DNA of 64,000 nt from the NCBI RefSeq assembly GCF_003716325.1, contig NZ_RDSR01000012.1, positions 1-64,000 on the forward strand, given 5' to 3'. The DNA comes from Cryobacterium tepidiphilum (GTDB taxonomy: Bacteria; Actinomycetota; Actinomycetes; Actinomycetales; Microbacteriaceae). Positions 5,550 through 51,689 of this stretch are shown here, one piece after another (position 1 is the stretch's first letter; each line of letters starts with the position of its first letter). The position numbers and the translations under genes are program-made. Under the pieces are notes generated by a model that worked only from the letters and a program-made list of their open reading frames with translations, made no database searches and was not told the origin of the DNA.

Positions 5550-6904
5550 GCGTGCATGCTTTCCGCCACGGCGAGCGTGCGCCGGGCCAGGTCGTCGAAC
5601 GCGCTGGCATCGAACCCTGGGATGCTGGACGCCAGGCGGTTGTGCAGTGGGTCGATCCATTCGGCGGGCAGAGCGGATGCGCCCGCGAGCGCCCCGCAGA
5701 TGGAGCCGGCCGTGGCGCCGACCGAGTCGGTGTCCCAGCCGCCGGTGACGGCCAGCGCGATCGCCTCGGCGAAGTCCCCGCCGCTCCGGGTGAGCGCGAA
5801 GGCAAGGAGCGCCGCATTGTTGAGCACATGCACCCAGTGCAGGCGGCCGAATTCGGCGTGCAGGGTGTCGAGTGCCTCCTCGACGGGCGTGTGCCCGCGG
5901 CCGAGCTCGCACCCGCGGCGGATGGCCGCCGCATAGCGGCTGCCGGCGGGAACGACGGAGAGGCCGGCACCGATGACGTCGTCCATGCTTGCGGCGACCA
6001 CGGCCGCCGATGACGCGGCGGCGACGAACATGGCGCCGTACAGCCCGTTCCGGCGGTGACTCAGCCACGCGTCGGTCCAGGCCAGGCGGGCCGCCCGCCG
6101 CGGGTCGCCGGGGCAGGCCCAGCCGTAGACGTCGGTGCGGATCTGGGCGCCGATCCAGTCCCGGAAGGGATTGCGCACGGCCCCTGCCACGTCGGGTTCG
6201 TAGCCGTCGAGGAGGTTGCGATAGGCGATGCGCTCCGCGGTGAAGACCCGGCCCCCGGGGAGGTTTGCCAGCCAGGACCGGGCGACGTCGTCGGTCGTGA
6301 AACCGGCGCCGACGCGCTCCAGGAGGTCGAGGCCGATCAGGGGAAAGTTGAGGTCGTCGTCTTCGGGCATGCCGTCGATGTTCTCGGCCAGGCTCGTGGG
6401 TCGGCTGCGCCGGTTCCACGGATACCGGGCCGCGACGTCGGCATCGAGACCCGCCTCGGTGAAGTAGCCGGTGATCGGCCAGTTTCCGGTGGACTGCGCG
6501 ATCGCCCTGATTCCTTCACGCGGGATCTTCTCGACGGGTTTGCCGAGGAGGCAGCCCGCGGCCCGGCCGAGCCACGCGCCGTGCACGCGGTCCAGGTTGG
6601 TGGTCGGCGGGAGTGACGGCGTTGCCGGGGCGGCGGCACGGATGTCGTCCAGGGCGTCGGGTTCGGCGTGGCGGAGGGACGCGGGGATGGGAATCCGGTC
6701 GATGTCGTCGAGCAGGGTCCGCGCCAGCAGCCGCAGTGCGTCGTCGGCGGCGGTGGGCGTGGCGCCGGTCGCGGGTGCCGTCGTGCTTCCCCCGGCACCG
6801 CGCCAGCGCTCGCGGATGGCGGTGACGTCCTGCTCGTCGGCGTCGGCGGCGGCCAGGGCGTGCGGGAGCAGGTCTTCCGGTTGGGTCCAGGTGAGCCGCA
6901 GCAT
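5546..6904 (-). CDS. ADP-ribosylglycohydrolase family protein (second copy)
   Basis: A 452-residue member of the DraG/ARH superfamily, whose enzymes hydrolyse N- or O-glycosidic bonds to ADP-ribose or similar ribosides using paired Mg ions. The family core begins at about residue 105 (VHGAWLGRAAGCLLGKP). The first metal motif is altered to PEDDDLNF (classically TDDT), and the second is intact as GGWDTDSVGATAGSI near the C terminus. About 100 extra N-terminal residues precede the core. The ATG start at 6904 shares one base with the upstream stop (TGATG) and the 3' end overlaps the next gene by ATGA. The sugar-operon context suggests a catabolic glycosidase rather than protein de-ADP-ribosylation. 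Confidence 0.85.
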   Translation of the reverse strand: MLRLTWTQPEDLLPHALAAADADEQDVTAIRERWRGAGGSTTAPATGATPTAADDALRLLARTLLDDIDRIPIPASLRHAEPDALDDIRAAAPATPSLPPTTNLDRVHGAWLGRAAGCLLGKPVEKIPREGIRAIAQSTGNWPITGYFTEAGLDADVAARYPWNRRSRPTSLAENIDGMPEDDDLNFPLIGLDLLERVGAGFTTDDVARSWLANLPGGRVFTAERIAYRNLLDGYEPDVAGAVRNPFRDWIGAQIRTDVYGWACPGDPRRAARLAWTDAWLSHRRNGLYGAMFVAAASSAAVVAASMDDVIGAGLSVVPAGSRYAAAIRRGCELGRGHTPVEEALDTLHAEFGRLHWVHVLNNAALLAFALTRSGGDFAEAIALAVTGGWDTDSVGATAGSICGALAGASALPAEWIDPLHNRLASSIPGFDASAFDDLARRTLAVAESMHA

Positions 6905-41638: not shown

Positions 41639-42058
41639 GTGACTCCGGAGATCAACTACTGGGCCGTGATCCTCGCCACGCTCTCGAGCATGGTCGTCGG
41701 GTCGATCTGGTACACGCCGAAGGTCTTCGGCCGCTACTGGATGAAGGCCGCGAACGTCACCCCGAGCGGCAGGGCAGCGGATGCCGTCGTTCCGATCCTC
41801 ATCACCCTCCTGGTGAGCTTCGTGACGGCCTGGGTGCTGGCCGGCGCCACCTACATCGCCTGGGACTTCTACGGCGGCAGCTACTTCCGCAACGCCGTCG
41901 TGACGGCTCTCATGCTGTGGGCCGGGTTCACGGCCGCCCGGTTCATCACGCACGACGCGTTCGACCAGCGGCCCCGCGGGCTCACGCTCCTGAACGTCGC
42001 GCACGAGCTCGTGACCATCCTCGTGATGTCGATCATCATCGGGGTGTGGCCGGCCTAG
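41639..42058 (+). CDS. DUF1761 family membrane protein
   Basis: A 139-residue protein with four hydrophobic segments and the DUF1761 pattern: NYWAVILATLSSMVVGSIWYTPKVFGRYWMK at the start, a central segment VTALMLWAGFTAARF, and a final helix with NVAHELVTILVMSIIIG. Family function is unknown. GTG 41639 follows GAAAGGA. It is divergent from the nuclease-helicase gene and convergent with the TetR-type regulator, 16 bases apart. Confidence 0.85.
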   Translation: MTPEINYWAVILATLSSMVVGSIWYTPKVFGRYWMKAANVTPSGRAADAVVPILITLLVSFVTAWVLAGATYIAWDFYGGSYFRNAVVTALMLWAGFTAARFITHDAFDQRPRGLTLLNVAHELVTILVMSIIIGVWPA

Positions 42059-42074
42059 CCGCGCCCGCGCCGGG

Positions 42075-42713
42075 CTAGGCCGGAGTCTCCACCAGCCTGG
42101 TCAGGTGACGCAGGTCGTCGTACCGTTCCGGCACGGTGACGGAGGGGAGCAGGATCTCCCACATCTGCCGGATGCGGCCGAGAAGGTCGTGCCGCGAGGT
42201 GAAGACATTCGCGACCAGCTGCACACCGGTGAACGACGGGATGATGAACCACGCCAGCACGTCGGGGGCCACATTCTCGTTGATGTCGCCTTCACCGATG
42301 CCCGTGCGGATGAGGTTCTCGAACGTCACGAGCCAGTCGCGGTACGGCTCGATCACCTGCGGCTGAAAGGACGCCGCCTCGGTCGTGAGGCGGATGCCCG
42401 CCTGCACGACGGGGTCGGTCATCAGGTGCCGGCCGAGGTCGGCGCACAGGAGGATCATCGTCTCGAGGGCGGGCCGGCCCAGCGCGATGATCGCCGTTCC
42501 CGACACCTGCGAAATGCGGTTCTGCTCCTCGATGACAGCCAGCGCAAGGTCGTCCTTGCTGTCGAAGTGGAAGTACAGGGCGCCCTTGCTGACATTCGCC
42601 TCCACCGCCACATCGGCGAGCGAGGCGTTGCCGTAGCCGAGGCGTTCGAAGACCACTGCCGCACCACGGATGATCGCCTCCCGGGTTGCGAGAGCGCGTG
42701 CTTGCCGTGCCAT
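42075..42713 (-). CDS. TetR-type regulator resembling gamma-butyrolactone receptors (ScbR/ArpA group)
   Basis: A 212-residue repressor. The N-terminal HTH region (MARQARALATREAIIRGAA, then FERLGYGNASLADVA and SKGALYFHFDSKDDLA, residues 1-55) closely follows the ScbR/ArpA autoregulator-receptor consensus rather than generic TetR. The C-terminal ligand domain includes PDVLAWFIIPSFTGVQ. In Streptomyces such receptors sense gamma-butyrolactones; no AfsA-like synthase is in this window, so the ligand could be external or different. It stands alone on the minus strand. Confidence 0.85.
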   Translation of the reverse strand: MARQARALATREAIIRGAAVVFERLGYGNASLADVAVEANVSKGALYFHFDSKDDLALAVIEEQNRISQVSGTAIIALGRPALETMILLCADLGRHLMTDPVVQAGIRLTTEAASFQPQVIEPYRDWLVTFENLIRTGIGEGDINENVAPDVLAWFIIPSFTGVQLVANVFTSRHDLLGRIRQMWEILLPSVTVPERYDDLRHLTRLVETPA

Positions 42714-42778
42714 GTGCCTCCTCGCCGCTGCCTGGTGACGCCACGTCGGCGGGCCTTCTCACCCGCGCCGCTTGCATC

Positions 42779-43054
42779 CTAGGGGCTACCGTGCCCGAAG
42801 TCCCGGACGTCGCCCACCCGCGACGCCCCGGTCGCTCGCCGGGCGAATCGCGCCGCGACGACAAGTCCTCCCCCGATGACGGTGACGGCGACAACGAGGA
42901 CCGTCACCCACGCGGCCTGCACCACGACGCCCGCTGCGACCCACAGCAGAACGGGCAGCCCGGAGGCTACCAGCACCCACCCGAATGCCTCCGCGACGAC
43001 GAGACCCAGCCGCCATCGTCTCGCCGTCGTTTCGCTGCCGGCAGCCTCGCTCAT
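42779..43054 (-). CDS. Hypothetical small membrane protein
   Basis: A 91-residue protein with a short soluble N terminus, two hydrophobic segments (about residues 15-45 and 48-70) and an Arg-rich cytoplasmic tail. I recognise no family. ATG 43054 is preceded by a purine-rich GGGGGAAGGG. It begins 28 bases downstream of the cyanophycinase-like remnant on the same strand, so it may now be read from the promoter of that locus. Confidence 0.6.
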   Translation of the reverse strand: MSEAAGSETTARRWRLGLVVAEAFGWVLVASGLPVLLWVAAGVVVQAAWVTVLVVAVTVIGGGLVVAARFARRATGASRVGDVRDFGHGSP

Positions 43055-43081
43055 CGCACGCCCTTCCCCCGTTGCGGCACT

Positions 43082-43325
43082 CTACCGTACATACCGTGCG
43101 ACCGGTTTTGGAGCCGCAACGCCACGACACATGTCTGCCGGGCGCTCGGACGGGGCCGCCCCGGCCCCGTCGACCACGTACACGGCGCCCGAGCCGATGA
43201 CCCGGAAGTCCGTGCCCTCGACGACGATCGTCCTCATCGATGCTGAGCACCCGCGGGCTGTGCGCCACCGCTCCAAGCAGCCGCCCGATGCGCCCGCGCC
43301 CGGCGGCGTGGGTGCGGTCAGTCAC
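43082..43325 (-). pseudogene. C-terminal remnant of a cyanophycinase-like gene, with frameshift
   Basis: In one frame from 43325 the minus strand reads RGRIGRLLGAVAHSPRVLSIDED; after about 43232 the matching continuation is in the next frame: TIVVEGTDFRVIGSGAVYVVDG, ending at 43082. Joined, this matches the end of cyanophycinases as I remember them (a GRxGRLLxAVxxxP, GIDEDTAIVV, VIGSGAVYVVDG series). The two parts join cleanly if two bases were lost at GAGGACG. The first two thirds of the enzyme, including the catalytic serine region, are absent because the isoaspartyl peptidase gene directly abuts. Family assignment is from memory of motifs, not a search. Confidence 0.6.
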
Positions 43326-44247
43326 GGGGCAGGTCCTCGGGGTAGGTATCAGGGTCGGTTTTGTGAATGGTGTCGCGGCCCAGTACCTGCCGCGTCATGG
43401 CACGGACGGATGTCGTGTCGTCGGCATACGCCACGGCGAAGTCGCGACTGCTGTGGGCCCAGCCGATGCGTCCGCCGGCGTCGATGATGATGAGCCCGCC
43501 GTCGCCGCCCACCAGCCGGAGCCGGTCGAGCGCCGCCTCGGCGGCCTCGGCGGGCGAGCCGGTGGCGAGCGCGGCCATCGCATGGGAGGCGAGTGCCACG
43601 CGGGTGATCTCCTCCCCGGTGCCCGAGACGGAGACGCCGCCGATGGCATCCTCGGCGTAGAGACCGCAGCCCGGCAACGGGCTGTCGCCCACGCGTCCCG
43701 GCAGTTTCCCCGCCAGTCCCCCGGTCGACGTTCCCGCGGCGATGTGCCCGGCTGCATCCAGGGCCACGCAGCCGACGGTGTCGGAGCCGATGTGGCTCTC
43801 GCGCTTGCCCGGCGCCACGAGATCGGCGGGGTGTACGAGTTCCACGCCCCGCTCAAGGGCGAAACGCACCGCCCCCGCTCCGGCCAGCAGCACGGTCTGC
43901 TCGGTGAGGAGTTCGGCCGCCAGCGAGATCGGATGCCGCACGCCCTGCACGGCGGCGACCGCGCCGACGTCGAGAGTGGCGCCGTCCATGAGCGCCGCAT
44001 CGCATTCCACGTCGCCGTGATGGTTCACGACCGACCCGAACCCGGCGTTGAAGGTCTCGTCGTCCTCCAGCACCCTGATCGCCGCCTCAACGGCCGACGT
44101 GGCCGCGCCGCCCGATTCCAGGACCGCCTGCCCTGCGCGCACGGCTCGGGCGCAGCCGAGCCGGCTGGCCTCTTCCTCCGACGGATGGATCGACTTCGCA
44201 CCGCCGTGCACGATGATCGCCCACTGCAGTCGTTCCCTTTCAGCCAT
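43318..44247 (-). CDS. Isoaspartyl peptidase / plant-type L-asparaginase (Ntn hydrolase)
   Basis: A 309-residue precursor that should self-cleave before the Thr nucleophile, T157 (SDTVGCVALD), with the following AAGTSTGG as substrate loop. N-terminal landmarks are WAIIVHGGA and NAGFGSVVNHHGDVECDAALMDG. These enzymes hydrolyse beta-aspartyl dipeptides, including beta-Asp-Arg from cyanophycin, and L-asparagine. The start ATGGCTGA overlaps the upstream short ORF's stop by 8 bases. It appears intact while both flanking cyanophycin-like genes look decayed. Confidence 0.9.
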   Translation of the reverse strand: MAERERLQWAIIVHGGAKSIHPSEEEASRLGCARAVRAGQAVLESGGAATSAVEAAIRVLEDDETFNAGFGSVVNHHGDVECDAALMDGATLDVGAVAAVQGVRHPISLAAELLTEQTVLLAGAGAVRFALERGVELVHPADLVAPGKRESHIGSDTVGCVALDAAGHIAAGTSTGGLAGKLPGRVGDSPLPGCGLYAEDAIGGVSVSGTGEEITRVALASHAMAALATGSPAEAAEAALDRLRLVGGDGGLIIIDAGGRIGWAHSSRDFAVAYADDTTSVRAMTRQVLGRDTIHKTDPDTYPEDLPRD

Positions 44248-44590
44248 ACAACGCCTCCTCGCCCCTCACACCCGCCGCACCGGCCGCGGCATCCGCTGGC
44301 CCGCCCGGTGACGGCCCGAAACCGGGCCCGGGCACGAACTCCTGCACCTGCTTCCAGCTGCCGGCCACGTCGGTCGGCATCAGCACCACGAGGTCCTCCG
44401 GCCCCGCCATGCTGAGAGCGCCCATCGCCTCACGCTCGTCGATGTCCCGGCGCACGTGTTCCACGCGCATGCCGGCAGCGATCGCGCTGTAGAGGTAGGG
44501 ACCGCGGTAGACGGACCGCTCGAGGACGCGCATCAACGGATGCGTCGGTGCGCACGCGGGTGCGGGCTCGGCGGAGAATTCGCGGGACAT
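44240..44590 (-). CDS. Short ORF resembling an internally deleted cyanophycin synthetase
   Basis: A 116-residue open frame from ATG 44590. Its first part, HPLMRVLERSVYRGPYLYSAI, resembles the extreme N terminus of cyanophycin synthetases (pattern SVYxGPxxYSxxP). Directly after it comes AGMRVEHVRRDIDEREAMGAL then PEDLVVLMPTDVAGSWKQV, which resembles the end of the Mur-ligase domain of the same enzyme. The ATP-grasp and ligase cores (roughly 800 residues in the family) are missing. The stop overlaps the isoaspartyl peptidase start by 8 bases, so coupling is preserved. If the resemblance is wrong, it is a hypothetical small protein. Confidence 0.5.
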   Translation of the reverse strand: MSREFSAEPAPACAPTHPLMRVLERSVYRGPYLYSAIAAGMRVEHVRRDIDEREAMGALSMAGPEDLVVLMPTDVAGSWKQVQEFVPGPGFGPSPGGPADAAAGAAGVRGEEALYG

Positions 44591-44757
44591 AACCCGAATG
44601 TAGACACGAGTGACGGCCGGCGGAAGGCCTTGCCTCGGGGCCCATCTGTGGGCCTCGGATGGCGCGCGTGCTGGGCGCTGGGGCGCGTGTGGCACGCCAC
44701 GCGCGCGGCGGCGCTGCGTGGGCGTGCCGGCGGCGGCGGGCCCACGATCGGCTGGCG

Positions 44758-46107
44758 CTAGGGCGTGGAAGACCTCACCACGGCCGGCAGGGGGTCGACG
44801 GCGCGGCTCCGCTGGGGCGCCGGCGGCGTCGGGGCCGTTTCGATGGGGTCACCGATGCGGATGAGCCACGAGTGCAAGGCCGCGGCGTACTCGTCCTTGA
44901 TGTGCGCGTACGCCGGGTCCTCCGCTCGGTTGTCCTTCTCGGCGGGGTCGAGCCCGCGATCGTAGAGTTCCTCTCTCGGGCGTGGCTCCAGGTGCCGGTC
45001 GCCCATCATTTGGCGGGTCTTGCTCTTCTCCAGGTCGATGGCGAGCTGAAGGTTCGGACCGGGCTCGTAATTGCGGATGTACGCGTACGAGGCCGACCGC
45101 ACGGCGCGCTTGGGATCGTAGGTGTCGTGGTAGTCCTTGGCGGAGTACACCAGCCGGCCGGGGTCGCCCTCGGATTGTCCGCGCAGCACGGGCAGCAGTG
45201 ACACGCCTTCGAGCTCAGCCGGGGCGGCGCCGCCCGCCAGTTCGATGAGGGTCGGCACGAGGTCCATGTGCGAGACGACCGTCGAGACGCGATGCGGGTC
45301 GACGCCCCACGACACCGGGGGCCTCACGATCAATGTGACCCCGGTCCCCGAATCGCGGAGGGTGCTCTTTCCGCCGGGGAAGGCCGCCCCGTGGTCGGTG
45401 GTGAGGATCACCATCGTGTTTGCCGGGTCCAGTGTGGCGTCGAGGGCTGCCATGAGGCGTCCGAAGCCGTCGTCGAACTGGGCGATGGCGCCGTAGAAGT
45501 CGGCGATGTCGGAGCGCGTGCCCGCATTGTCGGGGAGGAAATCAGGCACGTCGACCTGGTCCGGATCAGCCGGGGAATAGTCCTCGTGCGGCCACGGACG
45601 GTGCACCTCCCAGGTTCCGACGGTCAGGAAGAGGGGGTCGCGCCGCTCGGCGGGAGCGAGGTGCGCCAACCAGTCCTCGGTGGCCTCGACGACCTGGTTG
45701 ACGCGGGGCAGAAAGCCCTGGCCGGGGCACTCATCGAAGCCGAGCACCGTCGGGTCGACGTTCTCGTGCTGGAGACCGATGAGCGCCGAGTGGTAACCGT
45801 ACGGGCGCAGTCGTTCGGGCGCCGTCAGGACGTTCTCGCGGTAGCGCCAGGCGTTGTGGCTGAGCCCCTGGATGCCGTTGACGTACGGTGACATGCCGGT
45901 GAACAGGGCTCCGCGGGCCGGGGAGCAGAGCGGAGCCGCGGAGTGCGCGTTCTCGAACACCACCGAGCGCTCGGCGAACCGCGCGATGTTCGGCGAGGGA
46001 ACGTGGGTCATCCCGTAGATGTTCAGCCACCGGCCAAGATCATGACAGTGGATGAGAACGACATCGGGATGCAACGGCTGGGTCACCTGGGGGTTCCTTT
46101 TCATCAT
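44758..46107 (-). CDS. Type I sulfatase (formylglycine-dependent)
   Basis: A 449-residue S1-family sulfatase with no signal peptide. The maturation motif is C61-S-P-A-R65 (APLCSPARGALFTG), where C61 is converted to formylglycine; metal and active-site motifs include IHCHDLGRW (H22-D23), TVGTWEVHRPW and TTDHGAAFPGGK. The early HDLGRW pattern resembles sulfamidase or heparan-type sulfatases, but the substrate is not decidable. It is the last gene of the second catabolic operon, after a binding-protein gene and a perfect hairpin. The activating enzyme is encoded at 50655-51689. A cytoplasmic location implies that a sulfated compound is imported first. Confidence 0.9.
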   Translation of the reverse strand: MMKRNPQVTQPLHPDVVLIHCHDLGRWLNIYGMTHVPSPNIARFAERSVVFENAHSAAPLCSPARGALFTGMSPYVNGIQGLSHNAWRYRENVLTAPERLRPYGYHSALIGLQHENVDPTVLGFDECPGQGFLPRVNQVVEATEDWLAHLAPAERRDPLFLTVGTWEVHRPWPHEDYSPADPDQVDVPDFLPDNAGTRSDIADFYGAIAQFDDGFGRLMAALDATLDPANTMVILTTDHGAAFPGGKSTLRDSGTGVTLIVRPPVSWGVDPHRVSTVVSHMDLVPTLIELAGGAAPAELEGVSLLPVLRGQSEGDPGRLVYSAKDYHDTYDPKRAVRSASYAYIRNYEPGPNLQLAIDLEKSKTRQMMGDRHLEPRPREELYDRGLDPAEKDNRAEDPAYAHIKDEYAAALHSWLIRIGDPIETAPTPPAPQRSRAVDPLPAVVRSSTP

Positions 46108-46165
46108 GGTTGTTCTGTCCCGTTTTCAGACGGGCTCGTCTCAGGGAGGGACGCACGTCCCGGAT

Positions 46166-46197
46166 CCGGGCCGGTGCACGGGAGTGCACCGGCCCGG
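46166..46197 (-). terminator. Intra-operon hairpin between binding-protein and sulfatase genes
   Basis: Perfect 13-base inverted repeat, CCGGGCCGGTGCA and its complement, with a 6-base loop, located just after the binding-lipoprotein gene and 58 bases before the sulfatase start. No T-tract. As at 8110-8146, it probably protects or attenuates the message so that the binding protein is made in excess. Confidence 0.65.
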
Positions 46198-46207
46198 CGT
46201 GTGCGGG

Positions 46208-47584
46208 TCAGCTGGTGGGCAGTCCCTCTTTCTGGATCAACGCCTCCAGCTGCTGCTGGATCTTTTTCATCCCCTCCTCCGGCGAGACCTTGCCGGCCGC
46301 GATCTGCTGAAGGTCGGGCTCGGTGAAGTTCAGCATCTGGGTCGAGAACGAGAAGCGCAGCGACGTCGGGTCGTCGGGGAGTCCGGCGGCCGTCTCCTTG
46401 ACAGCGGCGAGCGCCTGTTCCGAACCCTTCGGCAGGTCGCTGGCGCTGTAGGCCTCCTCGCGAACGGGGATGCCTCCCGCCTGGGCGAACAGCGTCTGCG
46501 CCTTCGCCGAGGTGATCCAGGTGATGAACTCGAGCGCTGCCTTGGCGCGCGCCTTCGGCAGGCCGCTCGGGATGGCCAGCGACCACAGTCCGGTGGCCGA
46601 GGACGACGTGCCTGCGGGGGTCGGCGGGAGCGGTGCGAAGCCAACCTTTCCAGCCACCGAGGAGTCCGACTCGCTCTCGAGTTGCGCGGCCGCGGCGGCG
46701 ACCATGTAGGTCTGGCCCGCGTCGCCGGCCTGCATGGCCGCGATGGCCTGCGCCTGCCCGATCGTCGTGGTCGCGGCAGGCCCCTGCTTGGCGAGCTCAC
46801 GGAATCGGGTTGCCGCCAGAACGGCTTCGCTGCTGTCAGCGGTGGGCGTCCAGTCTGTTCCCGGGTCCTTGAACCACGCGCCGCCGGCACCGTTCAGGAG
46901 CGACTGGAACTCGAAGGTGGTGCTGTAGGTGCCGGGAACGCCCTGCGTCCGGTACACGCCGCCGTACTTGAGGTCACCGGATTCCTGGATCTTCTTGCCG
47001 TTGGCGATCATCTGGTCCCACGTGGTGGGCACCTCGAGGCCGAGCTTCTTGTAGACGTCGGTGCGGTACACGAAGATGTCGACGTTGCCGAGGATCGGGA
47101 GGTTGGTGAGCTCCCCTGAGCTGTCGAAGATCTTCTTGTCGGCGTTCCATCGGCCGACGTTGCTGTAGCTGTAGATGCTGTCGTCCGGCTTGTAGCTGGG
47201 GTCCACGTCGGTGAACGGCTGGATCCAGCCGTTCTCATTGAACTGGACGAGGTCCTGTTCGTTGATCTGGTAGACGTCGAAGGTGTGGCTCTGGCTCTGG
47301 ACGTCGTTGACCTCCTGGGTCTTCACGTCAGGGTTCGGGAACGGGCGGAGATTGATCCTGTTGCCCGTCTCCTTCTGGTACTCCTGGATCAGCTTGTCGT
47401 ATGCCGGGTTCCAGGGCGCCTGGCTGGTCGGAACGGTCAGGGTCACCGCGTCGCCCTTCCCGGACAGCGACCCTCCGCCTCCGCCCCCGGTGCAGGCGGT
47501 GAAGCCCAGCAGGGCGACGGATGCGGCGAGAGACGCCGCGGTCGCCCGGAGCACGGTCCTCCGGGGTGCGTGTGCTGCTTTCAT
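46208..47584 (-). CDS. ABC transporter sugar-binding lipoprotein of the sulfatase locus
   Basis: A 458-residue solute-binding lipoprotein. The signal peptide MKAAHAPRRTVLRATAAS ends at lipobox FTAC (C31), followed by a Gly-rich linker. Family features include VTLTVPTSQAPWNPAYDKLIQ, VDVYQINEQDLVQ-like strands and LWSLAIPSGLPKARAKAA near the hinge. AAGGAG lies about 12 bases upstream of ATG 47584. With two permeases upstream it forms a CUT1-type importer; adjacency to a sulfatase suggests a sulfated sugar or glycan fragment as substrate. No ATPase gene is present. Confidence 0.88.
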   Translation of the reverse strand: MKAAHAPRRTVLRATAASLAASVALLGFTACTGGGGGGSLSGKGDAVTLTVPTSQAPWNPAYDKLIQEYQKETGNRINLRPFPNPDVKTQEVNDVQSQSHTFDVYQINEQDLVQFNENGWIQPFTDVDPSYKPDDSIYSYSNVGRWNADKKIFDSSGELTNLPILGNVDIFVYRTDVYKKLGLEVPTTWDQMIANGKKIQESGDLKYGGVYRTQGVPGTYSTTFEFQSLLNGAGGAWFKDPGTDWTPTADSSEAVLAATRFRELAKQGPAATTTIGQAQAIAAMQAGDAGQTYMVAAAAAQLESESDSSVAGKVGFAPLPPTPAGTSSSATGLWSLAIPSGLPKARAKAALEFITWITSAKAQTLFAQAGGIPVREEAYSASDLPKGSEQALAAVKETAAGLPDDPTSLRFSFSTQMLNFTEPDLQQIAAGKVSPEEGMKKIQQQLEALIQKEGLPTS

Positions 47585-47640
47585 CTTTTCCCTATCTCCT
47601 TTGATGTGATGGTGCAGGTTGGGTTCGGTGGTGTGCGGGC

Positions 47641-48477
47641 TCATCCCTTGACGGATCCCGCTGTCAGCCCCGCCACGATGTGGCGGTTGGCGAAGACGGC
47701 CAGGAGGATCATGGGAATGGCCGCGATCGTTCCCGCGGCCGCAAGCTGTCCCCATGTCACGGCGTACTGCTGCAGGAAGCCCGCGATCCCGACCGTGATG
47801 GGCGCTGTCTCCCCGCCCGAGGTGAGGGTGAGGCCCATGAGGAACTCGTTCCACGCCATGATCCCGACGAAGACGCCCGTCGCGGCGAGGCCGGGACGCA
47901 CGAGCGGGAGCATGATCAGCCAGAACGTGCGCATCTCGTGGGCACCGTCGACGAGCGCTGCCTCCCGCAGTTCGTTCGGGAGGCTGGAGAAGTAGCTGCT
48001 CATGAGCAGAACGGCGAACGGCAGGTTGAAGAGGCTGTTGACCAGCACGAGACCCGGCACGGTGCCAAGGAGCCCCATGGTGTCGAGCAGCACGTAGAGT
48101 CCGGGCACGAGTGTCGCCGGTGGGATGAGCGGGATCACACCGGCCAGGGCCAGGGCAGGGAGCCGCACCCAGTTCGGCGGCGCGAGCTTCGCGAGCGAGT
48201 ATCCGCTGACCGAACCGATGGCGAGGCAGAGGAAGACGGTGCCGACGACGATGCCGACGCTGTTGAGCAGCTGCAAGAAGAGCGTTCCGCCGCTGAAGAT
48301 GTCCGTGTAGTTGCCCACCCAGAACGGGAACTCCCACTTCGAGCTGACGATGGCGCGGTTGGGCAGGAAGGCCAGGAGCGTTGCCCAGGCGATCGGGGCT
48401 GTAACGGCGATGAGAACCGCGACGAGGAGGATCTCGACGATGATGTTCGGCCGACGCGACTTCAACGTGCTGCTCAT
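47641..48477 (-). CDS. Carbohydrate ABC transporter permease (MalG-like) of the sulfatase locus
   Basis: A 278-residue membrane permease with six hydrophobic segments, the EAA loop EAALVDGAHEMRTFW...MLPLVRPG (near residues 175-205) and the terminal GLTAGSVKG typical of MalG-like subunits. ATG 48477 overlaps the upstream permease stop as ATGA. The 56-base gap to the lipoprotein gene contains its ribosome-binding site. Confidence 0.9.
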   Translation of the reverse strand: MSSTLKSRRPNIIVEILLVAVLIAVTAPIAWATLLAFLPNRAIVSSKWEFPFWVGNYTDIFSGGTLFLQLLNSVGIVVGTVFLCLAIGSVSGYSLAKLAPPNWVRLPALALAGVIPLIPPATLVPGLYVLLDTMGLLGTVPGLVLVNSLFNLPFAVLLMSSYFSSLPNELREAALVDGAHEMRTFWLIMLPLVRPGLAATGVFVGIMAWNEFLMGLTLTSGGETAPITVGIAGFLQQYAVTWGQLAAAGTIAAIPMILLAVFANRHIVAGLTAGSVKG

Positions 48478-49475
48478 GAGCGACCTGCCATTCTCGAGCG
48501 GGTGAAAAGCGCGAGCAAGAGGATCGCGATGGTGATCGCCACGACGAGGATGCTGAACGCTGCGGCCTCGCCGTAGTTGAGGTCCTGGAAGAACCACAGC
48601 TGGATGCGCTGGGACACGAGCGTCGTGGCCCCGTTCGGTCCGCCCGAGGTCAGCAGGTACATCTCGTCGAAGACCTTAACGCCCATCACGACGCGCACCA
48701 CGGCGACCGCACCGATGGCGGGGGCGAGCAGCGGCAGGGTGACCCGGCGGAGGATCTGGCCCTCACTGGCCCCGTCCATGCGGGCCGCCTCGAGCAGTTC
48801 CTCGCTGATCGACTGCAGGGCCGTGTAGATGAACAGGAACACGACGGGCGTCCAGTGCCAGATGTCGAGGGCGATCAGGCTGAGCATCGCACCGTGGCCG
48901 GAGTTCAACCAGGTCTGGCCCGGGAGGCCGAGGTTTTCGAGGACCTTGTTCAGGCCACCGGCGGTCGGACTCAGGATCAGGAGCCAGATCAGGCTGACGA
49001 CGACGGGAGCGATCACCGCCGGCCAGATGAGGACGTTGCGCGCGACGGGAAGCATGAGCACGGCGCGGTTCACCAGGAGCGCGAGGACGAGACCGGTGAT
49101 GATGCTGCCGAGCATCGTCGCGATGATGAAGACCGCGGTGTTCCCGAGCGCCTCCCAGGCATCCTTGTTGGCGAGGACGGCCTGGAAGTTTCCGATTCCG
49201 ATCCAGTCGAAGCTGAATCCGGTGGCCCCGAGGTCGACCTTTGAGAGGCCCATCTGGACGACTCGTGCGAAGGGAAGGGCGCCGAGCGCGAGGCAGAACA
49301 CCACGAACGGCGCCAACGCGATGACGGCGGTCCTGGCCGTGTTCGACCCCGGGCGGCGCCTGGCTCTCGTCGTACCGAGTGCGCCGCTCGACGCGCTCAT
49401 TGCGGAACCCCGGAACGGGCGCGCGCGCCCGCCGCGCCTTGCAATTGCTGCCACACTGTCACGCTGATTCCCCAT
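48474..49475 (-). CDS. Carbohydrate ABC transporter permease (MalF-like) of the sulfatase locus
   Basis: A permease of up to 333 residues with six membrane helices starting near residue 47 and the EAA loop EAARMDGASEGQILRRVTLPLLAPA near residue 235. The start is uncertain: ATG 49475 and ATG 49400 (MSASSGALG) both lack a good ribosome-binding site; the shorter protein (308 residues) is closer to family length. It is the first transporter gene, and a 28-base palindrome at 49499-49526 lies directly upstream. Confidence 0.88.
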   Translation of the reverse strand: MGNQRDSVAAIARRGGRARPFRGSAMSASSGALGTTRARRRPGSNTARTAVIALAPFVVFCLALGALPFARVVQMGLSKVDLGATGFSFDWIGIGNFQAVLANKDAWEALGNTAVFIIATMLGSIITGLVLALLVNRAVLMLPVARNVLIWPAVIAPVVVSLIWLLILSPTAGGLNKVLENLGLPGQTWLNSGHGAMLSLIALDIWHWTPVVFLFIYTALQSISEELLEAARMDGASEGQILRRVTLPLLAPAIGAVAVVRVVMGVKVFDEMYLLTSGGPNGATTLVSQRIQLWFFQDLNYGEAAAFSILVVAITIAILLLALFTRSRMAGRS

Positions 49476-49498
49476 CCAAGCATCGTTGATTCGGCTGG

Positions 49499-49526
49499 TA
49501 GATCGATCTAGCGCTAGATCGATCTA
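49499..49526. promoter_or_regulatory. 28-base nested palindrome, probable operator of the sulfatase/transporter operon
   Basis: A perfect 28-base palindrome made of two copies of the 12-base palindrome TAGATCGATCTA separated by GCGC. The centre CTAGCGCTAG has the CG-centred symmetry of LacI-family operators. It lies 23 bases upstream of the permease start and 30 bases downstream of the LacI gene's stop, so it would control the transporter-sulfatase operon rather than the regulator's own start. Confidence 0.8.
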
Positions 49527-49555
49527 GCTGATGCTAACAGCTCGGTTCGTGCGAT

Positions 49556-50560
49556 TCAAGCAGTGGGCGCACACCCGCACGAGGCGCGGACTTCGAGGTG
49601 CATCGTCATCGGTTCGATGTCCACGGCCGGGTCGCCCCGCAGCCCGGCGAGGATCCACGAGGCGGCGCTTCCGCCCAGCGCCGCGGGCCCCACCGCCACC
49701 GATGTCACCGGTGGTGAGAACACCTCTGACTCGGGCAGCCCGTCGAATCCGATCACGCTGATGAACCGATCGGAACGTGCCGATTCCCGAAGTGCGTGGA
49801 GGAGGGCGAAGGCGATCACGTCGCTGTGGCAGACGACCGCATCGAACTCGATCCCCGAATCCAGGAGCTGCGCGGACAACTCCATTCCGCTCCGGATGCT
49901 CGTCTCCCCCGGGAACTGCCGAATGAGCTGTGCCCCCGGATGCGCCTTCAGCGTCTGCTCGACGCCGGTCATACGGTCGTACCGGGGCCCCGCCTTCTCG
50001 GGACCACCGAGGTAGACCAGTCGCCGGGCGCCGTGCACGACGACGAGATGCTCGGCCGCGAGAGCGCCACCCTGCATGTCGTCGGGAACGAGACTGGGGA
50101 TGTCGTTCATCGATCTGCGAGTGATCGCGAGCACCGGCAGGCTCATCCCCGCGCTGAGGACGAGCGACTCCTCGCCGCCCACCGCGGGCGTGTAGGCGAA
50201 TCCGTCCACCGGGTATTCGAGCATTGCGCGCACGAGGCGCTGCTGGCGGGCCGGCTCGTCGAAGGTGTTCGTGACCATGGTCATGAACCCGGCTTCGGAC
50301 GCGACCTCTTCAAAGCCGAGCGTCATCGCCGAGAAGAAGGGGTTCGAGACATCCGTGAGAAGCAGCCCGAGCAGTCCGCTGCGATTCGTGCGCAGTGTGG
50401 CGGCACCGCGATGGTAGACGTATCCGAGCGCCTCCATCGATGCCTGCACGCGCACGCGGGTCTCGGGGCTCAAGCGACCCGTGCCGCGCACGACCATCGA
50501 CGCAGCCGCCCTGGAGACGCCGGCGTGCTCGGCCACGTCCTGGAGGGTCACTCGCTTCAT
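49556..50560 (-). CDS. LacI-family regulator of the sulfatase locus
   Basis: A 334-residue repressor with an N-terminal HTH (RVTLQDVAEHAGVSRAAASMV, residues 3-23), the hinge region up to AATLRTNRSG, and a sensor domain (GLLLTDVSNPFFSAM, AVVCHSDVIAFALLHALRE, SVIGFDG). Two cysteines end the protein (ASCGCAPTA). ATG 50560 lacks a strong ribosome-binding site; GTG 50569 is possible. It lies upstream of the transporter genes on the same strand and divergent from the formylglycine-generating enzyme gene. Confidence 0.92.
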   Translation of the reverse strand: MKRVTLQDVAEHAGVSRAAASMVVRGTGRLSPETRVRVQASMEALGYVYHRGAATLRTNRSGLLGLLLTDVSNPFFSAMTLGFEEVASEAGFMTMVTNTFDEPARQQRLVRAMLEYPVDGFAYTPAVGGEESLVLSAGMSLPVLAITRRSMNDIPSLVPDDMQGGALAAEHLVVVHGARRLVYLGGPEKAGPRYDRMTGVEQTLKAHPGAQLIRQFPGETSIRSGMELSAQLLDSGIEFDAVVCHSDVIAFALLHALRESARSDRFISVIGFDGLPESEVFSPPVTSVAVGPAALGGSAASWILAGLRGDPAVDIEPMTMHLEVRASCGCAPTA

Positions 50561-50654
50561 TCCATGCACGTTATCGCAAGCGCCGTCCCCGGTCGCCACC
50601 GGTCCTCCCGTCGGGGAGCACGTTCCCGGTCCGAGCGGCTAGCGTGGTACGCAA

Positions 50655-51689
50655 ATGTCGCACCATGACCAAGCCTCCAGCGCACCACCGGCGGATAGCC
50701 GGTCGAACGCACCCGACATGCACCGCAATCGGGAAGACGCGGGGCACCCGCCGTCGTGCTGCGCACCGAGCCGGACTCCCGCTGCGCCGGTGAGCGTCGG
50801 CATCGGAGGCCCTCCGGCTGCCGGTGGCGGCAGCCACCGCATCGAGCAGGCCACGCTCACCGGTGGGCGGTTCCTGATGGGCGACTCCACCGGCGACGGC
50901 AACCGCGCCGACGGCGAGACGCCGGTGCACGAGGTCGAGGTGGCGCCGTTCTCGATCGACGTGACCAGTGTCACGAACGCCGATTTCGCGCGTTTCGTCG
51001 ACGCGACGGGGTACGTCACCGAGGCGGAGAGCTTCGCGTTCTCCGCGGTCTTCCACCTCGCGGTGGCGGCGGAGCCGGACGAGATCATGGGCCCGGCGGT
51101 GGGGGCGCCCTGGTGGTACGGGGTCCGGGGCGCCGATTGGCGGCATCCGGGCGGATCACGCTCGTCGGTCGATGGCCTGGACGACCACCCCGTGGTGCAC
51201 GTGAGCTGGAACGACGCCGTAGCCTACTGCGCGTGGGCGGGCCGGCGACTCCCCACCGAAGCGGAGTGGGAGTACGCCTCTCGCGGCGGCCGGGGCGGCG
51301 CCCGATACCCGTGGGGCGATGAGCTCATGGCCGGCGACGGCCGATGGCGGGTCAATATCTTCCAGGGCGAGTTCCCCCAGCGCAACACAGCGGATGACGG
51401 CTGGCCGACCACCGCGCCCGTGCGTTCGTTCGAGCCCAACGGTTACGGCCTCTGGCAGACGGTTGGCAACGTCTGGGAATGGTGCGCCGACTGGTTCGAC
51501 GCCGGCTACTACGGTCGATCGCCGCTCGAGTCTCCCGCGGGCCCGATCGACGGAGCTGCCCGGGTCATGCGCGGCGGCTCCTATCTGTGTCACTCGTCGT
51601 ACTGCAATCGCTACCGCAACGCGGCTCGCTCGTCGAACACGCCGGACTCCTCGATGGGCAACGCCGGCTTCCGGACCGTGGCCCTCTAG
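50655..51689 (+). CDS. Formylglycine-generating enzyme (sulfatase-modifying factor)
   Basis: A 344-residue copper-dependent oxidase that converts the sulfatase-motif Cys to formylglycine. The N terminus has the actinobacterial SCCAPSR start; the core includes GGRFLMGDSTGDGN, ETPVHEVEVAPFSIDVTSVTN, HVSWNDAVAYCAWAGRRLPTEAEWEYASRGG and NVWEWCADWF. The catalytic pair is visible as C312 and C317 in GGSYLCHSSYCNRYR. The target sulfatase with CSPAR is 4.5 kb away on the other strand, with the LacI regulator between. ATG 50655 is the first start; an internal later start is possible because residues 1-45 are low-complexity. Confidence 0.93.
   Translation: MSHHDQASSAPPADSRSNAPDMHRNREDAGHPPSCCAPSRTPAAPVSVGIGGPPAAGGGSHRIEQATLTGGRFLMGDSTGDGNRADGETPVHEVEVAPFSIDVTSVTNADFARFVDATGYVTEAESFAFSAVFHLAVAAEPDEIMGPAVGAPWWYGVRGADWRHPGGSRSSVDGLDDHPVVHVSWNDAVAYCAWAGRRLPTEAEWEYASRGGRGGARYPWGDELMAGDGRWRVNIFQGEFPQRNTADDGWPTTAPVRSFEPNGYGLWQTVGNVWEWCADWFDAGYYGRSPLESPAGPIDGAARVMRGGSYLCHSSYCNRYRNAARSSNTPDSSMGNAGFRTVAL

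Follow-up and report, generated by a model that had tools for sequence, protein, structure and literature searches.

A relic of a cyanophycin operon, probably of recent collapse, around an isoaspartyl peptidase gene of Cryobacterium tepidiphilum

Described cyanophycin loci and the locus in the window

Clusters that bring together the cyanophycin synthetase CphA1, a cyanophycinase and the isoaspartyl peptidase IaaA form a published class, with Roseivivax halodurans as an example (Sharon and Schmeing, 2023, PMC10206079), and Table 2 of the same paper gives a cyanophycinase and IadA and/or IaaA for all 35 of the CphA1-bearing genomes of Actinomycetota surveyed there. Two further arrangements are named in that source, namely scavenging loci, with a cyanophycinase, an isoaspartyl dipeptidase and a transporter and no cphA (Ben Hania et al., as cited in PMC10206079), and the stand-alone IaaA of the E. 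coli type, in bacteria without cyanophycin genes; hydrolases of cyanophycin dipeptides of the M14 type are mentioned as well (PMC10206079).

The locus treated here lies in a window of 64 kb (the whole stretch of DNA analysed), taken from the beginning of contig C4 in a genome of 2.86 Mb and 31 contigs. Three adjacent units follow one another on its minus strand, in the positions that a preliminary description, made from the letters of the DNA, had given them: a short ORF, the gene iaaA, which this ORF overlaps by 8 bases (44240-44247), and an adjoining stretch read in two frames (43082-43325) (Table 1). Our yardsticks were the cphA-iaaA-cphB operons of Microbacteriaceae bacterium RM56_bin.064 (G079) and Naasia sp. 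RYN_63 (G436), in both of which all three genes are long and open, so that the intact operon foreseen for related genomes does exist. The locus is like these operons in the order and strand of its genes, in its tight overlaps and in the subfamily of its IaaA (60% identity, one clade), and unlike them in that cphA and cphB are short remnants and only iaaA is intact. With the scavenging loci it shares an isoaspartyl dipeptidase without CphA; however, the cyanophycinase that those loci keep is destroyed here, and the transporter genes of the window look, by eye, like a sugar ABC system, with genes for a sulfatase and a LacI-type regulator next to them. With the stand-alone IaaA of the E. coli type it shares the protein family, the presence of a single gene (PF01112, searched in its own genome) and, presumably, a general isoaspartyl role; in contrast, this IaaA is nearer to the operon-linked IaaAs than to those of 20 other genomes of the family (35-42% identity), and its gene still lies between cph remnants.

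The locus is almost certainly the relic of a cphA-iaaA-cphB operon for the synthesis and degradation of cyanophycin, and we would give a probability of about 0.87 to the recent collapse of such an operon as the whole explanation. It is a well-preserved pathway loss and not a new kind of system, caught part-way, in which IaaA stands after both of its partners have gone; a survey of gene presence would score the genome as having IaaA only and overlook its cyanophycin past. In the literature on cyanophycin synthetase pseudogenes, gene loss and Microbacteriaceae, no collapsed cph operon was found by title.

Table 1. Features of the cph locus in the window (CphA and CphB residues by tblastn, the queries being the intact proteins of G079)
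Feature	Positions	Strand	Remarks
Truncated cphA ORF, 116 aa from ATG 44590	44240..44590	-	both CphA pieces (1-17, 826-876) share one frame
CphA N-terminal remnant, residues 1-17	44483..44533	-	88% identity to G079 CphA; 35.0 bits
CphA C-terminal remnant, residues 826-876 of 893	44336..44485	-	59% identity to G079 CphA; E 3.6e-11
GAGGAGG, Shine-Dalgarno-like	44254..44260	-	read in the sequence; 6 bases 5' of the iaaA start
iaaA, predicted plant-type isoaspartyl peptidase/asparaginase (Ntn hydrolase)	43318..44247	-	PF01112, E 7.8e-76
Probable cphB start (GTG, VTDRT), tentative	43311..43325	-	from its place and the 8-base overlap with the iaaA end
CphB remnant, residues 169-196	43227..43310	-	79% identity to G079 CphB; TIGR02069 165-193, E 0.0022
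CphB remnant, residues 200-226, other frame	43148..43228	-	74% identity to G079 CphB; TIGR02069 196-220, E 0.0043

Identity and origin of the remnants

The whole CphA protein has ATP-grasp and Mur-ligase-like domains. In the short ORF, MRVLERSVYRGPYLYSA is joined directly, and in the same frame, to a block with PEDLVVLMPTDVAGSW, as the preliminary description had it, and the two correspond to the two ends of CphA, between which about 810 of the ~893 cphA codons are missing by comparison with G079; a functional cyanophycin synthetase CphA1 (TIGR02068) is not encoded at the locus, from which residues ~18-825 are absent. The pieces score 35.0 and 58.5 bits against G079, and the C-terminal one is 63% identical to the CphA end of G436. 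The open frame extends back to a GTG at 44695, and the ORF has 97 aa if it is counted from the ATG at 44533, a start homologous to that of intact CphA; its last 31 residues have no match, and it ends 8 bases inside iaaA.

The third unit also reads as first described, with RGRIGRLLGAV and then SIDED in the frame of the GTG at 43325, and TIVVEG and VIGSGAVYVVDG in another. Both of its tblastn pieces match CphB of G079 (45.1 and 42.0 bits, combined E 3e-14), short stretches being lost between residues 191 and 199, and neither the residues up to ~168 nor those after ~226 of that query were recognised at the locus; incomplete and with a switch of frame between its pieces, this stretch does not encode a functional cyanophycinase CphB (TIGR02069). 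The CphB proteins of intact operons begin with MT in 11 of 24 rows, and in one of them (L085) with MTDR, which together with the VTDRT read at the GTG suggests that the start of cphB, too, may survive.

If the profiles alone were considered, the iaaA could be conceived as an ordinary gene standing by itself, beside neighbours whose likeness to CphA and CphB is accidental, since Pfam finds nothing in either flank with E values up to 1, and the 116-aa ORF matches the CphA profile NF010623 weakly (810-864 of 871, E 0.28). The NCBIfam cyanophycinase model TIGR02069 does match both CphB frames collinearly, though far under its curated cut-off. The profiles being insufficient, it was tblastn with the intact operons of relatives that settled the identity, and queries from other operons match the same pieces in the window. 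As a control, 300 shuffled CphA and 300 shuffled CphB queries were run against positions 42000-46000 of the window, the best of them reaching 40.0 and 32.3 bits, respectively: the C-terminal CphA piece (58.5 bits) and both CphB pieces stand above all 300 shuffles of their query, whereas the N-terminal CphA piece (35.0 bits) falls within the shuffled range and has no significance alone, and is accepted because it keeps to the frame, is collinear and lies where one would expect it. The remnants are homologous to both flanking genes, collinear, on the same strand and in the right order, and with the E values of the tblastn searches this leaves accidental resemblance a negligible chance. Gene order, strand and the phylogeny of IaaA show the type of the operon. 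What had been identified in the preliminary description, that is, both ends of CphA, the end part of CphB and an IaaA between them, was correct and in the order of real operons; the similarity to those ends that it had set as a test is clear by tblastn and weak by profile.

The case that it had named against itself, a 116-residue ORF that is a conserved family in its own right, shows no sign of being true and was not supported. The 66-residue CphA part of the ORF matches 6 of the 398 genomes of the family, its own (G000) included; the other five (of 397) comprise three in which the match falls on an intact CphA and a marginal pair (G122, E 0.003; G343, E 0.009), and among 56 congeners there is no match.

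Another possibility is that the whole operon exists, and that its short version comes from a misassembly or from a mixture of strains. The genome is, it is true, in 31 contigs; but such an error would need two large joints in different genes, a change of frame and a lost tail, a whole CphA or CphB was found on no other contig, and the genome has a completeness of 99.88% and a contamination of 1.74%, and we therefore regard an artefact of this kind as very improbable. Throughout the genome, TIGR02068, the model for cyanophycin synthetase, is matched with 99 bits at most, where the cut-off is 850; none of six Mur_ligase_M matches scores as CphA, and TIGR02069 has no match at 0.001, which supports, at the level of the genome, the earlier proposal that both the synthesis of the polymer and its depolymerisation were lost. 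IadA has no match at 1e-20. In the family as a whole few genomes have a CphA that passes the cut-off (3/398).

The course of events would have been as follows: (i) both losses would be internal deletions, the one in cphB starting just after its start codon; (ii) these deletions would stem from illegitimate recombination, in a lineage whose genome, at 2.86 Mb, is a small one within the genus (range in 56 congeners 2.5-4.8 Mb, with a single smaller one); and (iii) the organism would make no cyanophycin. A relative at the level of strain or species was not found, as 0/56 congeners match either the IaaA or the CphA relic.

Upstream, at 44780-51679, lie genes that we label by eye as a sulfatase, a sugar-type ABC transporter and a LacI-type regulator. 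This segment has ~81% DNA identity with one congener (G055), which is also the only one of the 56 that the sulfatase matches. The match stops near the end of the sulfatase, directly before the cph relic, which places the cph locus on the border of a segment found in few congeners. The segment was considered as a part of the operon and dropped, G055 sharing it without any cph match at 0.01 (20 kb).

The peptidase that remains

The IaaA of the window has 309 aa and a full-length match to Asparaginase_2 (255.6 bits against a cut-off of 27, in two stretches); its residues 11-273 align with the solved isoaspartyl peptidases, and Thr157, the predicted nucleophile, with residue 1 of their beta subunits. 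None of the 51 positions that are invariant across 25 cph-linked IaaAs is changed, T157, T175, G176, R185 and D188 among them, which we take to be the nucleophilic threonine at the N-terminus of the beta subunit and its neighbouring active-site residues; at the 90% level 3/83 positions are changed, against 0 to 6 in the other 25 members. The gene looks intact, with all of its invariant residues. At 1e-20 it matches 24 of the 398 genomes of the family, its own included: the two operon relatives (60% identity), a third genome (G434) in two pieces (53-56%), and 20 others (35-42%). In a tree of 32 IaaAs it joins the IaaA of the Naasia operon with support of 95/86 and next, less firmly (87/86, under the star level of the program), that of the other Microbacteriaceae operon. 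Its end branch measures 0.47, as opposed to 0.74 and 0.59 in the operon relatives and a median of 0.37 for all rows, and by these lengths it is not lengthened. One open frame that joins iaaA to cphB (L083) was left out of the conservation and tree sets.

How long ago its partners were lost can be gauged from the remnants. Conserved CphA columns are changed in 0/10 cases overall and in 0/6 within the C-terminal piece (rows from 23 of 25 listed loci, L081 and L088 having been removed by a length filter, L083 being unlisted, and two rows with poor ends, L087 and L095, still included), and CphB residues 173-190 are identical to G079 in all 18 places. The changes in conserved columns of the two CphB pieces, 6/21 and 1/10, lie all at the joints in the former and near the lost tail in the latter. 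With the joints counted, the median identity of the first CphB piece to intact CphBs is 0.68, versus 0.82-0.93 among these, and in that sense the piece is changed; the C-terminal CphA piece (0.41) and the second CphB piece (0.63) remain within the ranges of intact genes, 0.16-0.51 and 0.52-0.67, respectively. Away from the joints the remnants are thus barely decayed, and the collapse looks recent. Differences in DNA from G079 fall at third codon positions in 7/8 cases in the N-terminal CphA piece, where 6/8 changed codons are synonymous, and in 7/11 in the first CphB piece, an excess which suggests that in these two most of the divergence is older than the loss of function; in the C-terminal CphA and second CphB pieces the changes are spread more evenly over the codon positions. 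When neutral change was simulated, the 18 CphB residues stayed as they are in 25% of runs at 0.04 changes per site, in 6% at 0.08 and in 0.6% at 0.15, from which the remnants would be young, if they are unconstrained.

This apparent youth bears directly on the question of why iaaA still stands. Where almost no point decay is seen away from the joints (CphB 173-190 with 18/18 residues kept, CphA columns with 0/10 changed), the gene may itself be unselected, the collapse being too recent for damage to have reached it, and such a reading is not without weight: an iaaA free of constraint would keep all 51 positions in 57% of simulations at 0.005 changes per site and in 35% at 0.01, and none of the 56 congeners matches either the IaaA of the window or IadA, which means that the genus in general can do without the enzyme. 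Against it, both flanking genes were hit by losses, none of which reaches into iaaA, and an untouched gene becomes improbable as neutral change accumulates (11% at 0.02 changes per site, 1.3% at 0.04). We hold an unselected iaaA to be possible, at odds somewhat below even. With 35% of runs unchanged at 0.01, the intact gene fits selection and does not prove it, and we lean, by a little, towards retention under selection.

Biochemistry offers a simple reason why iaaA may have outlasted its two neighbours: one IaaA and one IadA taken from cyanophycin clusters were assayed and both were promiscuous isoaspartyl dipeptidases, from which the authors drew the conclusion that enzymes of this kind act in the degradation of both cyanophycin and proteins (PMC10206079). 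Selection for a general isoaspartyl role is accordingly the likeliest reason why the gene stands, recent collapse being the main alternative. The role favoured in the preliminary description was that use of the beta-Asp-Arg dipeptide survived; it may have done so, and given the promiscuity of a cluster-borne IaaA a general role in isoaspartyl turnover is equally likely. The predicted enzyme would be expressed, would process itself at Thr157 and would hydrolyse isoaspartyl dipeptides from the turnover of proteins or, alternatively, given a transporter, beta-Asp-Arg imported from outside. The locus makes it testable whether an IaaA borne in a cluster also serves the general turnover of isoaspartyl peptides.

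Gene overlaps and cph-linked loci in other species

One genome per species was scanned with two peptide patterns across 84,980 species, and the best 80 of 161 stretches that encode relatives were kept. Within these best 80 IaaA loci the order cphA-iaaA-cphB occurs 24 times; cphA is near iaaA in 26/80, the remaining two being one locus with the order cphA-cphB-iaaA (L089, Paracoccus chinensis) and one with cphA-iaaA and no cphB. The other 54 of the 80 have no CphA match past 1e-6, and their only CphB matches are 13 weak ones (28-31%) upstream of iaaA. The 26 loci with cphA presumably belong to alphaproteobacterial genera, except for two actinobacterial loci and one armatimonadete.

An overlap of 8 bases, as between the short ORF and iaaA, is shared by cphA and iaaA in 9/26 of the cph-linked loci and by iaaA and cphB in 7/25 of the rows that have a cphB, with start codons chosen by a script, for which reason single overlap lengths may be off. 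Short overlaps of 8 bases are common in bacteria, and by themselves they are weak evidence. The preliminary description had supposed that the overlap was kept for the sake of the operon; it may have been, and we go no further than this because iaaA has a GAGGAGG of its own and because of the 9 in 26 loci with the same overlap.

One could go beyond this and suppose that the truncated cphA ORF works as a small protein, or is translated as a leader that brings ribosomes to iaaA, its in-frame fusion having been selected. The frame is preserved without a stop across a loss of ~810 codons, and the ORF overlaps iaaA by 8 bases. However, a frame is preserved by chance in one case of three; iaaA has its own Shine-Dalgarno-like site, which falls within the ORF of the cphA remnant; and the same short form is found in none of the 56 congeners or 397 other genomes of the family, two sets that share a few genomes. 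We consider such a leader unlikely, and it seems to us equally doubtful that the deletions that fused the ends of CphA were selected in that synthesis was gone and the flow of ribosomes into iaaA kept. If it were true, an operon for a storage polymer would have become, in a few steps, a dedicated isoaspartyl dipeptide operon with a leader ORF derived from CphA.

For five IaaAs without a nearby cphA (L079, L092, L104, L105 and L075), the queries of seven operons found no remnant of CphA or CphB at E 0.01 with one exception in L075, behind the IaaA of L079 only ~0.7 kb of sequence being available. The exception, a CphA match of 68 residues (E 0.001, 37%) that lies opposite a neighbouring ORF resembling, by eye, saccharopine dehydrogenase, was judged to be due to chance. 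In this same locus (5796-6514, G434), beside the saccharopine-dehydrogenase-like gene, the IaaA (53-56% to that of the window) is split over two frames, and neither CphA nor CphB is matched at 1e-6; the genome is 89% complete, in one contig, so indel errors are possible.

Several of the loci depart from the usual form in other ways. In Aerophototrophica crusticola (L083, 3770-5518) iaaA and cphB share one open frame of 582 codons, possibly a natural IaaA-CphB fusion. In Geminicoccus flavidas (L081, 2992-6648) the cphA match switches frame between residues 621 and 672, and as the first frame continues without a stop into iaaA, over 1218 codons, a cphA frameshift (true or from sequencing error) is likelier than a fusion. 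Two stops lie in the matched cphA frame of Rhizobium mesoamericanum STM3625 (L088, 5269-7962), and the CphA end of Rhizobium wenxiniae (L087) diverges past about residue 836; these are either cphA decay or sequencing error in rhizobia. Lastly, the weak CphB-like matches just upstream of iaaA (28-31%) occur in 13/80 loci (L128, L134, L137, L139, L140, L141, L145, L147, L149, L150, L154, L155 and L156), all named Stenotrophomonas save L141, which is labelled Bacillus subtilis SK7B5; since its arrangement is the same as in the Stenotrophomonas loci, this record may be mislabelled.
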